From positions 1 to 35,996 of the forward strand of contig CALWXA010000094.1 in NCBI GenBank assembly GCA_944385395.1: 35,996 nt of DNA, read 5' to 3'. Below the pieces are notes generated by a model. It was not told where the DNA came from, ran no database searches, and was given only the letters and a program-made list of their open reading frames with translations. Positions 27,441-35,996 of this stretch are shown in pieces. Within the stretch, counting starts at the first letter, position 1, and every line of letters begins with the position of its first letter. The translations under genes and the position numbers were made by a program. The DNA comes from an uncultured Oscillospiraceae bacterium (GTDB taxonomy: Bacteria; Bacillota; Clostridia; Oscillospirales; Oscillospiraceae).

Positions 27441-28631
27441 ATGTTTCTTTCCAAAACCATTGCGCGCAATCCGGATCTGATCCGGACCGCTGTTACCCTG
27501 CATCAGCAGGGCCTGATCCCCGCCGGCAGCTACCTCATCGATCTGGATACCGTGGCCCAGAACGCCTGCCTGATGAAGGAAAAAGCCGATTCCCTGGGGC
27601 TGAAGATCTTTGCCATGACCAAGCAAATCGGCCGCAATCCCGCCGTGATTCGCACGCTGATGGATGCCGGTATCGACAGCGCCGTGTGCGTGGATATGGC
27701 CGACGCCCGGCGTGTCCATGAAGCCGGCATGAAGATCGGACATCTGGGCCATCTGGTGCAGGTGCCCATGGCCGAGACGGCTGCCGCCGTGGCCATGGAG
27801 CCGGAGTACTGGACGGTGTACAGCCTGGAGAAGGCACGCCAGATCTCCCAGGCCCTGCCGGCCGGCCGTGAGCAGAAGATCCTGCTGCGGGTATATGATG
27901 AAGGGGATACCTTCTATACCGGACATGAAGGCGGCTTCCCTGCCGGTGAGATCCGCCAGGTCATCGCCGAGATCCAAAAGCTGCCGGGACTGCGGTTTGC
28001 CGGTCTTTCCACTTTTCCCACCCAGCTCTTTGATCCGGAGACCGTTACCGTCCGGCATACCCACAACTATGAAACCCTGAAGAAGCTGAAGCAGGAGCTG
28101 GAGCAGGAGGGCTATGGCCCCCTGGAGATCAACGCTCCGGGCACCACCTCCTCCCACCTCTTTGAGGAGATGGCCGCCAGCGGCGCCACCCAGGTGGAGC
28201 CGGGCCACGGCCTCACCGGCACTACCCCCATCCACGCCCTGCGTGACATGGCGGAGAAGCCTGCCATGGTGTACGTCTCGGAGGTTTCCCATTTCTATAA
28301 GAATCGGGGCTATTGCTATGGCGGCGGCATGTATATCGACCCGGTGTTCCCGCCCTATGAGGTTCGCGCCTGCGTGGGGAAGGACCCCGACACGACCCTG
28401 CGCAATCTGGTGCCCTGCGATATTCCTGCTCCCTCGGCCATCGATTATTATGGTATCCTGGCCGCCAATGCGCCGGTGCAGGCCGACGATACGGTGGTGT
28501 TCGGCTTCCGGGCCCAGATCTTCGTCACCCGTGCCTTTGTGGTGCCGGTCTCCGGCATCGCCGACGGCAAGCCTGTGGTGCAGGGGATCTATGACTCCGA
28601 CGGAAAGAAAATGGGGTGGCCGCATTGCTGA
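27441..28631 (+). CDS. YhfX-type PLP enzyme (alanine racemase-like fold)
   Basis: A 396-residue fold-type III PLP protein. LIDLDTVAQNA (about 32-42) opens the barrel and FAMTKQIGRNP (57-67) holds the PLP lysine K61. GLSTFPTQLF, INAPGTTSSHLFEE and VEPGHGLTGTTPIHA correspond to phosphate and substrate positions of the YhfX group; a C-terminal beta domain follows. E. coli YhfX is itself uncharacterised. Such enzymes may racemise or epimerise an amino acid or amino sugar acid. AGGAGGG precedes ATG. Being inside a transporter operon, between permease and ATPase with a 16-base overlap into the latter, it presumably acts on the imported compound. Confidence 0.9.
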   Translation: MFLSKTIARNPDLIRTAVTLHQQGLIPAGSYLIDLDTVAQNACLMKEKADSLGLKIFAMTKQIGRNPAVIRTLMDAGIDSAVCVDMADARRVHEAGMKIGHLGHLVQVPMAETAAAVAMEPEYWTVYSLEKARQISQALPAGREQKILLRVYDEGDTFYTGHEGGFPAGEIRQVIAEIQKLPGLRFAGLSTFPTQLFDPETVTVRHTHNYETLKKLKQELEQEGYGPLEINAPGTTSSHLFEEMAASGATQVEPGHGLTGTTPIHALRDMAEKPAMVYVSEVSHFYKNRGYCYGGGMYIDPVFPPYEVRACVGKDPDTTLRNLVPCDIPAPSAIDYYGILAANAPVQADDTVVFGFRAQIFVTRAFVVPVSGIADGKPVVQGIYDSDGKKMGWPHC

Positions 28632-30133
28632 ATAACCAACCGTACGCACTGGAGATCGTAGACGTCCGGAAATCCTTCTTCCAGAACCCGGTGCTGCTGG
28701 GTGTTTCCTTCGGCCTGCGCCGTGGCGAGATTCTGGGCCTGCTGGGCGCCAACGGCGCCGGCAAATCCACCCTGATGAAGATCGTCAACGGCGTGTATAA
28801 GATGGACAGCGGCTCCATCCGCATCAACGGCCAGGAGGTCCGGATCCGTGACTCCGCCGACGCCCGGGGCAACGGCATTGCCATGGTCTACCAGGAGTTT
28901 TCCCTGATTCCCACCATGACGGTGGTGCAGAACCTGTTCCTGGCCCGGGAACACAAGAAAATGGGCCTCATCGACGAGAAAAAGTGCCGCCAGGAAGCCC
29001 TGGAGATCTTCGAAAAGCTGGGTATCCAGATCGACCCGGATGCGGTGGTGGGAGACCTCTCCATCGGCAACCAGCAGCTGGTGGAGATCGCCAAGGCCAT
29101 GATGCAGGACCCGTCGGTGCTGATTCTGGACGAGCCCACTGCATCCCTGACCCATGCCGAGATCGCGCTGCTCTTTGATTTTGTGGACCGGCTGCGGAAA
29201 AGCGGCATCGCCATCATTCTCATCACCCACCACATGCAGGAGATCATGGATGTGTGTGACCGGGCAGTGATCCTCCGGGAAGGCAAGGTGGAGATGGACG
29301 CCCAGGTGAAGGATGTGACCATCCGTGACATGGTGGAAGCCATGGTGGGCCGTTCGGTTTCCGCTGAAAAGCTGCCGCCTGCTCAGCCCATCAACTATCA
29401 GGAAGCGCCGCTGCTGCAGGTGTGCGGCCTCAGCTGCCTGCCAAAGGTCCAGGATGTTTCCTTCCAGGTCTATCCCCGGGAAGTGGTGGGCATCGCCGGC
29501 CTGCTGGGCAGCGGCCGGACGGAACTGCTGAAAACCATCTACGGTCTGCTCCATGCCGATGGCGGCAACGTCCAGCTGGACGGCACCATCCTGCCTGCCC
29601 GGCGTGACCCCGCCTGGTCCATTGACCACGGTATCTGCTTCGTGCCGGAAAACCGTCGTACCCACGGCATCGTGCCCATCCACTCGGTGTGCAGGAATAT
29701 GCTGCTGTCGGTGTGGAAGCATTACCGCAAAGGCGGATTGCTGGATGACCGCAAGGCCACGGCGGATACCACGGATATGATCGAAAAGCTGGCCGTCCGC
29801 TGCACCGGCCCGGAGCAGCTGCTGCAGAATCTCTCCGGCGGCAACCAGCAGAAGGTGGTGTTCGGTAAGAGCATCTTTACCAATCCCCGGGTGCTGCTGC
29901 TGGATGACCCCACCGTAGGCATCGACGTGGATGCCAAAAACCAGGTGGCGGCGGTGATCCGCGGCATTGCCGACGAAGGCAGCGCCGTGGTGCTGGTGTC
30001 CTCGGAGATCGAGTATCTGGAAAAGGTCTGTGACCGGGTGCTGATCCTCCGTGACGGCCGGATCGCCAAGGAACTGCGTTCCGGTGTGGATGACCTGTCC
30101 GAAACCGCCATCATCGACGCCATGCAGAGCTGA
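28616..30133 (+). CDS. Sugar-type ABC transporter ATPase (RbsA-like, two domains)
   Basis: A 505-residue fusion of two nucleotide-binding domains that drives the permease. Domain 1 has Walker A GANGAGKST (44-52), signature LSIGNQQLVEIAK and Walker B LILDEPTASLT. Domain 2 has the degenerate Walker A GLLGSGRTELLKT typical of RbsA, an intact signature LSGGNQQKVVFGK and LLLDDPTVGIDV. The start is GTG at 28616, 16 bases inside the YhfX-type gene, with only a weak purine-rich site; a TTG at 28625 preceded by GGGGTGG is an alternative. Last gene of the cassette, followed by a strong terminator. Confidence 0.95.
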   Translation: MAALLNNQPYALEIVDVRKSFFQNPVLLGVSFGLRRGEILGLLGANGAGKSTLMKIVNGVYKMDSGSIRINGQEVRIRDSADARGNGIAMVYQEFSLIPTMTVVQNLFLAREHKKMGLIDEKKCRQEALEIFEKLGIQIDPDAVVGDLSIGNQQLVEIAKAMMQDPSVLILDEPTASLTHAEIALLFDFVDRLRKSGIAIILITHHMQEIMDVCDRAVILREGKVEMDAQVKDVTIRDMVEAMVGRSVSAEKLPPAQPINYQEAPLLQVCGLSCLPKVQDVSFQVYPREVVGIAGLLGSGRTELLKTIYGLLHADGGNVQLDGTILPARRDPAWSIDHGICFVPENRRTHGIVPIHSVCRNMLLSVWKHYRKGGLLDDRKATADTTDMIEKLAVRCTGPEQLLQNLSGGNQQKVVFGKSIFTNPRVLLLDDPTVGIDVDAKNQVAAVIRGIADEGSAVVLVSSEIEYLEKVCDRVLILRDGRIAKELRSGVDDLSETAIIDAMQS

Positions 30134-30167: not shown

Positions 30168-30207
30168 GCAAGGCGGCCGTCCGTTTGGGACGGCCGCCTT
30201 GCTTTTG
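30168..30207 (+). terminator. Terminator of the ABC/YhfX cassette; left copy of 40-bp repeat
   Basis: Perfect 15-base arms beginning GCAAGGCGGCCGTCC, loop GTTTG, then TTTTG, 34 bases after the ATPase stop. The 40 bases 30168-30207 recur exactly, in the same orientation, at 31078-31117. Confidence 0.93.
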
Positions 30208-30253
30208 CCTGTGGGAATACTTTTTGACCAAAATGGACGGAGGGAAAGATTGT

Positions 30254-30376
30254 GTGAAAGAAAACCATCAGGAAGCATTTTGCCAAGATGATTTCTGCTT
30301 ATGCTATATAGAAAATAGTAATTTCCTTAATTTTATTATTATCAAGACAATCTTTTCCTACATAATAATCAAATAA
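30254..30376 (+). pseudogene. Possible truncated gene start
   Basis: GTG at 30254, with GGAGGG upstream, reads MKENHQEAFCQDDFCLCYIE before running into AT-rich sequence and stopping at 30376. The first 17 or so codons have normal composition; the rest is antisense to the end of the orphan gene. It may be the 5' remnant of a gene cut by the insert, or chance. Confidence 0.25.
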
Positions 30377-30988
30377 ATCAAGAACATTTTCCTTCTTAAA
30401 ATTTGGCAGCATATCTTTCAATTTTTTTGCTTTTGGATCTACTTTATATCGCTTATTTTTTTCAAGTTCATATTCACAGGGTAGCCCTCGTGTTTCTGGG
30501 CAATTCTTTATATTGTCCATAATTAAATAACTTGAAATCTTCCTTACTATTTTTCCGTTTTCTAATATTTTAAAATATCCTCCGGTATCATTTCCCATAA
30601 ACACATAACTCTTAACGTTTGAATAATGACGTTGCAGTATTGCGAAAACATCGGAAACTAAATGATTCGTAAAAATCAAGCTTCCCTTATTCTGTATCTC
30701 AACAACAACTATTTTTCCTTCTTTTATACATCTTAAGTAGAATTCTGTATTAAATTGAGCAGAGGTGATCTCTTCTTTATAAAGGGTCTTGTTTTGAACA
30801 TAATTGGGATAAGGATATTTCAAAAAAAATCCATCCTCAAATATGTGAAATAAAGGAAGAAACATGACATTGAAATTATCTTCCATCAGTTCGCTGATGT
30901 TGTTTTTGAATGCACATGAATGCATTTGTTTTGCTATTGCTGCATCAGGTCCAATTTCTTTTTTGCTGAAAATGTTTAACAATCCCAC
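30299..30988 (-). CDS. Orphan hypothetical protein in AT-rich insert
   Basis: A 229-residue cytosolic protein with no signal or membrane span and no recognised family. Codon use is strongly AT-biased, unlike every neighbour, indicating foreign origin. The middle looks strand-rich (KIVVVEIQNKGSLIFTNHL, VKSYVFMGND). The pattern GGYFKILENGKIVRKISSYL, then RGLPCEYELE, loosely recalls small antitoxin/immunity-type proteins, a low-confidence impression. The start is taken as GTG at 30988 because GGAGG lies eight bases upstream; a TTG at 30994 is possible but too close. A minus-strand TATAAT at 31030-31035 is the probable -10, without a clear -35. Confidence 0.75.
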   Translation of the reverse strand: MGLLNIFSKKEIGPDAAIAKQMHSCAFKNNISELMEDNFNVMFLPLFHIFEDGFFLKYPYPNYVQNKTLYKEEITSAQFNTEFYLRCIKEGKIVVVEIQNKGSLIFTNHLVSDVFAILQRHYSNVKSYVFMGNDTGGYFKILENGKIVRKISSYLIMDNIKNCPETRGLPCEYELEKNKRYKVDPKAKKLKDMLPNFKKENVLDLFDYYVGKDCLDNNKIKEITIFYIA

Positions 30989-31077
30989 AATCAAACCCTC
31001 CGCCTTACAAATTTCATTTTAATGCTCTCATTATATCATTTTTCACTGGTATTTCCTACCTTTATTCAACAAACTGC

Positions 31078-31117
31078 GCAAGGCGGCCGTCCGTTTGGGA
31101 CGGCCGCCTTGCTTTTG
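31078..31117 (+). repeat. Right copy of 40-bp terminator repeat
   Basis: Identical to 30168-30207 in sequence and orientation. Its U-tract points plus, but no plus-strand gene precedes it, so it is a duplicate and not the terminator of a local gene. It could weakly stop degV transcription on minus, where no U-tract follows. Confidence 0.95.
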
Positions 31118-31127
31118 GCAATGGCTG

Positions 31128-31970
31128 TTACTTCTTGAAAAAGGCTACGGCAATGGCGCCGGGACCGGCATGGGTGCCGATGACGCCGCAGATGGGGGTG
31201 ATGTTGAGCTGCTGAGCCTGCCCTTCCCACAGGTGTGCGCTGTCGGCGATGTCCTTGCGCAGCAGCTCGTCGCTGAGCCCGGAATAGCCCAGCAGGATGG
31301 GGGCGCTGAAATTGGCGCCTCCGGCCTTCTGGATCTCCGTAGCCAGCAGATTGTTGGCCTGCTTGGAGCCCCGGGCCTTGCCCAGCACCACGATCTCGCC
31401 CTTCTGCAGGGTGATCACCGGCTTGATGGACAGCAGCGCCCCGGCAAAGGCGGCGGTCTTGGACAGACGCCCGCCACGCTTCAGGAACTCCAGGGTATCC
31501 AGCATGGCCACCAGGCATACATCCTCCCGCCGCCGGGTCAGCTCTTCTGCGATCTGGGCGGCAGTCAGTCCCTGCCGGGCCAGCTCTACCGCCAGCTCTG
31601 CCAGAATGCCGCCGCCGATGGCAGCGGTCTGGGAATCCACCACGTGGACCATACCGGGGAAATCCATGGCGGCGATGCAGGCGCTCTGATATGTGCCCGA
31701 CAGCTTGGCGGCGATGGTCAGCACCACCACCTCTTCACCGGCCTCCTTCGCCTCACGGTATACCTGGGCAAAGGCCTCCGGCGTGGGCTGGCTGGTGGTG
31801 GGCAGCACGTCGCTTTCGATCAGCTTTTCGTAGAACTGCCGGTGGTTCATGGTGACGCCGTCTATGTATTCCTCTTCACCAAAATGCACGGTCAGGGGCA
31901 CCACGGTACACTGTGCCCGCACCTCCGGCGTTACATCCGATGTGGAATCAATGACGATCCGAACGTTCAT
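31128..31970 (-). CDS. DegV family fatty-acid-binding protein
   Basis: A 280-residue cytosolic protein; the family binds a fatty acid and, as FakB, presents it to fatty acid kinase for incorporation into phospholipid. IVIDSTSDVTPE (5-16), LPTTSQPTPEAF (about 56-67), LSGTYQSA (about 90-97) and LEFLKRGGRLSK (about 161-172) are the family motifs; the serine/threonine-rich TTSQP loop holds the lipid carboxylate. AAGGAG precedes ATG. It follows a MarR gene by 34 bases on the same strand, so the two are probably co-transcribed; a link between lipid status and the regulator is inferred. Confidence 0.95.
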   Translation of the reverse strand: MNVRIVIDSTSDVTPEVRAQCTVVPLTVHFGEEEYIDGVTMNHRQFYEKLIESDVLPTTSQPTPEAFAQVYREAKEAGEEVVVLTIAAKLSGTYQSACIAAMDFPGMVHVVDSQTAAIGGGILAELAVELARQGLTAAQIAEELTRRREDVCLVAMLDTLEFLKRGGRLSKTAAFAGALLSIKPVITLQKGEIVVLGKARGSKQANNLLATEIQKAGGANFSAPILLGYSGLSDELLRKDIADSAHLWEGQAQQLNITPICGVIGTHAGPGAIAVAFFKK

Positions 31971-35590: not shown

Positions 35591-35996
35591 TATTCTTGCT
35601 TTTTGGGGGCACTTCATGATTATCCAGTTTTTTTCTCCTGCGCTTTTTTATCTCGATCAAGCATTGGCTTTTGATTTATTTGGCGTTTTACGGTACGCTA
35701 AAATGAAATCTTGCGCTTATGAGCCGCTATTTTTGCGGGCGTTAAAGTCATGCGCTTTGGCTTTATTTGGCGTTTTACGGTGCGCCAAAAGAAAAGATTT
35801 GCGCTTACGAGCCGCTATTTTTGCGGGCGTTAAAGTCATGCTCTTTGGCTTTATTTGGCGTTTTACGGTACGCCAAAAGAAAAGATTTGCGCTTATGAGC
35901 CGCTGTTTTTCTGTAGGCGTTAAAGTCATGCGCTTTGGCTTTATTTGGCGTTTTACGGTGCGCCAAAAGAAAAGATTTGCGCTTATGAGCCGCTGT
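35205..35996 (+). CDS. IS3 transposase OrfA fused in frame to tandem repeats (partial)
   Basis: Residues 1-115 or so are OrfA-like: MPKGIPNKRYTPEFKKLVIE, an HTH (KLSYRETARRFEVSSDTRIKDW), a basic linker (GRGSKGRRPKK) and the leucine-zipper-like VEKDLLAEVQRLRAENEYLK. Then RENPRVVQKL looks like the start of the OrfB-type region, but the expected RSTFYY segment does not follow. The frame stays open for all 264 codons to the window edge, the last 110 inside the 87-90 bp repeats. The repeat-encoded part (for example RFTVRQKKRFALMSR) resembles no transposase. Likely a disrupted gene; translation of the fusion is unproven. Confidence 0.65.
   Translation, partial: MPKGIPNKRYTPEFKKLVIETMMAEKLSYRETARRFEVSSDTRIKDWERIYLTEGPEGFAVERRGRGSKGRRPKKLPTAVEKDLLAEVQRLRAENEYLKNLQALVFERERRRENPRVVQKLMSEFALSLILAFWGHFMIIQFFSPALFYLDQALAFDLFGVLRYAKMKSCAYEPLFLRALKSCALALFGVLRCAKRKDLRLRAAIFAGVKVMLFGFIWRFTVRQKKRFALMSRCFSVGVKVMRFGFIWRFTVRQKKRFALMSRC
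35664..35996. repeat. 87-90 bp tandem repeat array
   Basis: The anchor TTTGGCGTTTTACGG starts at 35679, 35766, 35854 and 35944, giving periods of 87, 88 and 90. The first copy is the most diverged, and the last is cut by the window end. Each unit contains TTTGGCG...CGCCAAA and CCGC...GCGG, two small stem-loops, and the invariant GGCGTTAAAGTCATGC. There are no unique spacers, so it is not a CRISPR array. Both strands have long open frames through it. Confidence 0.92.

Follow-up and report, generated by a model that had tools for sequence, protein, structure and literature searches.

An AT-rich insert, probably a cargo-bearing element with IS1182-type ends that entered a single hairpin and duplicated it whole

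The 870 nt of AT-rich DNA that separate two identical hairpins in a 35,996-nt contig of an uncultured Oscillospiraceae bacterium (the window, by which we mean this whole stretch; GCA_944385395.1, CALWXA010000094.1) are very probably a non-autonomous, cargo-bearing element with IS1182-type ends, which entered a single hairpin and duplicated it whole, presumably by means of a transposase supplied in trans. We establish here that elements with shared ends lie at duplicated hairpins over many loci and species, that the duplications are centred on the dyad of the hairpin, and that an IS1182 transposase is encoded between ends of the same kind at one such duplicated hairpin. The chances seem about even that, in the Oscillospirales, IS1182-type elements and MITEs form a large class that behaves in this way, attacking the 5' feet of an extruded cruciform so that the hairpin rather than a fixed stagger sets the length of the duplication, the neighbouring genes keeping working stops and the carriage of cargo being possible. 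The features of the insert and its surroundings are as follows.

28616..30133, plus strand: ABC transporter ATPase gene, the left neighbour, named by eye from its translation
30168..30207, plus strand: hairpin copy 1, the left half of the target duplication, which follows the stop of the ABC ATPase gene at a distance of 34 nt
30206..30219, plus strand: left end, with a weak likeness to the family terminal repeat (PWM score -4.1)
30208..31077, no strand assigned: element body between the hairpin copies, 870 nt long, with a GC content of about 30%
30237..30272, plus strand: conserved left block, ACGGAGGGAAAGATTGTGTGAAAGAAAACCATCAGG, common to dispersed short elements
30299..30994, minus strand: putative cargo ORF, 231 aa from a TTG, the sole long ORF between the hairpin copies
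31062..31075, minus strand: right end, AGTTTGTTGAATAA read inwards, resembling the family terminal repeat (PWM score 7.7)
31078..31117, no strand assigned: hairpin copy 2, the right half of the target duplication, separated by 10 nt from the stop of the degV-like gene
31128..31970, minus strand: degV-like gene, the convergent neighbour on the right, its name given by eye following the sequence-only reading

As that reading had pointed out, the 40-mer at 30168-30207 recurs exactly and in the same orientation at 31078-31117, the two copies starting 910 nt apart. Each copy forms a stem of 15+15 nt with a 5-nt loop, for which RNA folding gives -36.6 to -39 kcal/mol (z -5.2 to -9.6). The different composition of the insert is confirmed (GC about 0.30 between the hairpin copies against about 0.60 in the flanks), as is the presence of one orphan gene, the single long ORF on the minus strand, which matches no recognised family. 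The insert encodes no transposase of its own, its sole long ORF being this 231-aa orphan, and a search of its genome (92.8% complete, 104 contigs) for an IS1182 transposase returned no match; hence we refer to it as non-autonomous and not as an IS. The right end is the fourth-best PWM position in the window on both strands, with three unrelated places scoring higher, and the score of the left end falls between the 99th and the 99.9th percentile of window positions. In the interior, the 36-nt block is the only part held in common with the family. The insert could be pictured as an old composite, in which a MITE fragment came to lie next to an unrelated imported AT-rich gene and the duplication was made by the MITE alone; the confinement of strong conservation to the left block and the degenerate left end would fit such a history, but all 870 nt are directly bracketed by the hairpin copies, and beside copy 2 there is a right end similar to the family terminal repeat; we regard the composite as unlikely.

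The insertion site lies between convergent genes, the ABC ATPase gene on the plus strand and the degV-like gene on the minus strand. The hairpin had been called an operon terminator, of which the second copy was said to have no plus-strand gene to terminate. This overlooks the degV-like gene: its stop lies on the minus strand 10 nt away and copy 2 is listed on that strand by a terminator scan, so that copy 2, next to which this convergent gene ends, does have a gene to serve. Copy 1, however, is absent from the listing on both strands, so that its role as a terminator is suggested by where it lies, by its stem and by a short TTTT.

The 36-nt block at 30237-30272 has 35 further matches in the same genome, several of them at contig ends (a few of the 35 may be two halves of a single copy), and it is found in at least 109 stretches of contigs from other genomes. 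By title, the hosts among the matches listed are Acutalibacter, Flavonifractor, Pseudoflavonifractor, Galloscillospira, uncultured Oscillospiraceae and unnamed Clostridia or Bacillota. The copies in the window's own genome are short elements, with 158 to 205 nt between the repeats in the ten that have clear repeats, and many are flanked by a hairpin that is the same on both sides of a locus and different from locus to locus. Flanking repeats were scored with +1 for a match and -3 for a mismatch, with a threshold of at least 15, and mismatched pairings of left and right sides served as the control. With the window excluded, 10 of the 17 uncut copies in this genome reach 15 and one more scores 13, whereas none of 272 mismatched pairings reaches 15 (highest score, 12). 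Ten own-genome copies show their left side only, because the contig ends inside the element; four of these find a single partner contig start with the same hairpin (scores of 26-30, next best at most 10), a fifth scores 17 and the remaining five have none above 12. The 80 loci listed from other genomes contain 58 usable copies, 30 of which are at or above the threshold, against 0 of 398 controls; three of the 30 (L114, L164 and L186) are other repeats and were dropped from the final set. When both sources are pooled, the matches listed comprise 145 distinct copies, 44 cut and 101 uncut, and 53 of the uncut copies are at the direct-repeat threshold. Six of the 53 (the three just named, with L190, L197 and L210) were dropped as other dispersed or internal repeats, which leaves 47 duplications, 11 of them from the own genome including the window. 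The other 54 uncut copies among the matches listed, 48 below the threshold and six with other repeats, have no hairpin duplication, which may be a matter of age, of rearrangement or of another mode of insertion.

These counts bear on both origins that had been offered for the insert from its sequence. That of a mobile cassette integrating at the hairpin is supported, the second copy being a target-site duplication, but not the specificity for this 40-mer: since 10 of the 17 other uncut copies have a flanking duplication of their own, and four of the ten contig-end copies a partner, targeting is not tied to one sequence. The other origin was homologous recombination between two terminator copies that already existed, which would have brought in the AT-rich gene; a variant of it has the hairpin copied by gene conversion. 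The two window copies are identical, as expected of a recent event. However, an exact search of the 1.985-Mb assembly, one of the checks suggested at the time, finds the stem-loop at two places only, the two window copies, so that it is not a common terminator of this genome; elements whose ends are fixed show this pattern at many loci, each time with another hairpin; and the repeats match within a locus and not between loci (10/17 and 30/58 as against 0/272 and 0/398). Recombination between pre-existing copies, like gene conversion, is, we conclude, very unlikely.

Three observations on individual copies may be added. Two own-genome copies (L062 and L063) have the block followed by a different, GC-rich interior, which stops at the contig end, and possibly represent a longer member of the element family. 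The right hairpin of L060 and the left hairpin of L068 differ by what resembles, by eye, a compensated base pair. The conserved block is also present in three viral contigs (L348-L350), and the elements may therefore also ride on phages.

A comparison of the ATPase-degV junction with relatives lacking the insert had likewise been suggested, and it produced no exact empty site. Of 60 relatives searched with the DNA of the ABC-degV region, 31 have matches, and none of the matches listed spans both flanks. The 3' sides of the degV matches L011, L012 and L013, when read by eye, have different neighbours and lack the block; each shows one or two hairpins, which are unrelated. At a second locus, that of the F. 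plautii copy L188, the block is absent within about 260 nt of the gene concerned in 11 relatives (L337-L347), eight of which (L337-L341, L343, L345 and L346) have there one or more hairpins with a minimum of 12 pairs; the sequence of these is a different one, and so this is no exact empty site either. In one of these relatives, L339, there is in addition a smaller hairpin that resembles the one at the right end of the element, possibly a decayed element copy.

The length of the target duplications made by DDE transposons is normally fixed by the transposase. The 47 duplications are 15-48 nt long (median 28), and their length is correlated with that of the hairpin, measured around the dyad (Spearman 0.47, p 0.0008, n = 47). 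Their midpoint lies at most 1 nt from the hairpin dyad in 39 of 47 cases and at most 2 nt from it in 41, as compared with 11 and 18, respectively, of 188 random intervals of the same lengths at the same loci; a hairpin score of at least 18 is reached by 40 of the 47 duplications and by 4 of the 188 random intervals. The window duplication, which extends 5 nt beyond the stem, is among the 8 of 47 that lie more than 1 nt off the dyad. A T tract after the hairpin, or an A tract before it, accompanies 41 of the 47 (raw count). Repeats of variable length that equal the hairpin and are centred on its dyad are hard to reconcile with a fixed staggered cut; they fit an attack at both 5' feet of an extruded cruciform followed by gap repair. 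The direct repeats that reference tables list for IS1182 vary widely in length, and the compilers of these tables may have seen such cases.

A scan that started from hairpins instead, over 830 kb of retrieved loci, returned 35 duplicated hairpin pairs within 5 kb. The block is enclosed by 27 of them, including the dropped repeats L190 and L197; the other eight are accounted for by a tandem array in the window, by other repeats (L203, L210) and by internal hairpins of two neighbouring element copies (L132, L175). This is not an independent sample, because most of the loci had been retrieved via the block. A 2-kb hairpin pair in L197 that resembled an autonomous copy was rejected as another dispersed repeat. 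In L203, from Flavonifractor An10, a stretch of 4.2 kb contains three copies of a 20-nt hairpin, GGCGGGGGC..GCCCCCGCC (at about 3449, 6772 and 7617). A tandem array with an 88-bp period and about 3.7 copies occupies 35668-35994 of the window, reaching the contig end, and a short transposase-like ORF (by eye) adjoins it.

Like its relatives, the window insert lies at a hairpin that is duplicated. The original site would have held one hairpin between the convergent ABC operon and the degV-like gene. A transposase of the IS1182 type, acting in trans, would recognise this hairpin as an extruded cruciform, one end of the element would be joined to each strand, at the 5' feet of the stem-loop, and gap repair would copy the whole hairpin to both sides. 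Each neighbour would thereby be left with a complete hairpin, and the insertion may have been nearly harmless.

The element group is defined by its ends rather than by its interior. The left end is near CAGNCTGTC(A/G)AAAA and the right end near TTTT(T/C)GACANGCTG. In three of the genomes that contain such elements, namely those of L135, L114 and An10, similar ends surround interiors that are unrelated and measure about 200 to 325 nt, and here too the hairpin is duplicated. Of the complete elements of about 160 nt, 42 of 46 have a second hairpin of at least 7 pairs, with 28 distinct arms, and 43 of 46 a hairpin of at least 6 pairs at the right end, with 23 distinct arms (raw counts); this richness in hairpins hints at selection on structure. 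Within one element copy from Flavonifractor An10 (L222, about 1356-2406) there is an insertion sequence with the ends TGTAGG...CCTACA. A stretch of about 26 nt from the region at the right end of the element is repeated on both sides of it, and the 315-aa open frame of the insertion sequence weakly matches NF033594, which we take to be the NCBIfam model nearest to IS1202.

An autonomous relative was found in Flavonifractor An10 (L308). It is about 1.57 kb long and codes for a 465-aa protein of the IS1182 transposase family (370 bits with the NCBIfam model NF033551, for which the cut-off is 270), with Pfam matches to DDE_Tnp_1_6, DUF772 and DDE_Tnp_1. It has terminal inverted repeats at both ends, CAGCCTGTCGAGAAA ... 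TTTTTCGACAGCCTG, the right one reading CAGGCTGTCGAAAAA inwards, and sits inside a duplicated hairpin of 36 nt, the copies of which are 2 differences apart. In the genome of L135, a second gene of the IS1182 type (362 bits) has an end, CAGACTGTCAAAAA, that directly abuts a hairpin and that is also found in short elements of the same genome; its other end is lost at the contig end. A search for IS1182 in 13 genomes gave any match in five and a match over the cut-off in three. At four IS1182 genes of the An10 and L114 genomes (L320, L323, L324 and L327), family ends and a hairpin duplication were absent from the retrieved stretches; L320 and L324 sit at contig ends.

Other kinds of element must be weighed against an IS1182-type origin. 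A different hairpin-seeking element (a group IIC intron, a member of IS200/IS605 or a REP-like sequence) might have inserted alongside the first hairpin, carrying the second with it; group IIC introns do insert after terminators. However, the only matches in the window at the Rfam gathering score are two tRNAs, those near the insert being sub-threshold, and six element loci gave no Rfam match above the gathering score. Within the insert there is no Rfam intron match that would point to a group II intron of class C, and the long ORF matches no reverse transcriptase family. Moreover, the sequence of the hairpin changes with the locus and, thus, the hairpin is not carried by the element. This makes an alongside insertion the least likely of the readings considered. 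A DDE element of the IS1202 type is an extremely unlikely source of the duplication: NF033594 is over its cut-off in none of 22 element-bearing genomes (weak matches in six), the own genome has no match, and the transposase found between family ends is that of IS1182. What recommends it is that one IS1202 subgroup makes unusually long duplications, of 16-28 bp, for which, in the excerpt available, the authors found no target (PMC10132070); the likeness to the elements described here thus lies in the long target duplications of that subgroup, and the difference in the transposase family.

Turning to the IS1182 family itself, for which the published work is taken here from excerpts of each source, IS1272 and TnSha1 target hairpins, several of them confirmed terminators, with no primary sequence preference, and may have a passenger gene (Furi 2016, PMC4923244). 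The elements described here resemble them in the IS1182-family transposase, the hairpin target and the passenger gene; however, IS1272 and TnSha1 partly delete the hairpin and make no target duplication, whereas here the whole hairpin is duplicated (PMC4923244). In the cruciform-based 'inverted repeat-replacing' model, IS1272 is assigned to the branch in which the hairpin is replaced, and pathway b, in which the 5' feet are attacked and the hairpin is duplicated, is given as a possibility without examples (Wan 2017, PMC5678879). Many copies of the elements described here fit pathway b, while IS1272 as treated there loses the hairpin. They also differ from ISCaa15 (PMC3196728) and ISPse1 (PMC3281130), both members of IS1182 by their authors' classification, which have direct repeats of 4 bp. 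A 2025 paper has IS1182 elements acting with or without target duplication or deletion (PMC12056078), and in a survey IS1182 is one of the families with an excess of insertions between convergent genes (PMC9208149), as would be expected of terminator targeting. In the excerpts of the open-licence literature at hand we met no description of whole-terminator duplication as an observed outcome for this family. The length of the duplication here follows DNA structure, which the published model allows without examples (PMC5678879), and dozens of natural insertions make the mechanism directly testable. Terminators would offer mobile DNA landing sites defined by structure, and insertions into hairpins suggest a way for it to enter near genes at little cost; duplication of the hairpin looks like a little-described route by which it settles beside them.

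The 231-aa ORF is called cargo here in a putative sense. An alternative start is the GTG at 30988, which is preceded by what looks by eye like a GGAGGG-like site and would give 229 aa. An extended -10-like sequence, TGATATAAT, can be made out by eye at about 31030-31038, and a promoter scan of the ORF's strand (minus) found no promoter. The protein has nothing convincing in Pfam, NCBIfam, PHROGs, PADLOC, PDB sequences or viral contigs, and single-sequence AlphaFold gives a mean pLDDT of 36. In 394 genomes of the order, no homologue was found besides the protein itself; 2 of 198 other genomes have homologues, of about 40% identity. In the retrieved stretch around these homologues there are no direct repeats with a score of at least 16. 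In the two relatives concerned (L077 and L078, at about 1450-2120), the homologue comes after an rpoD-like gene (by eye).
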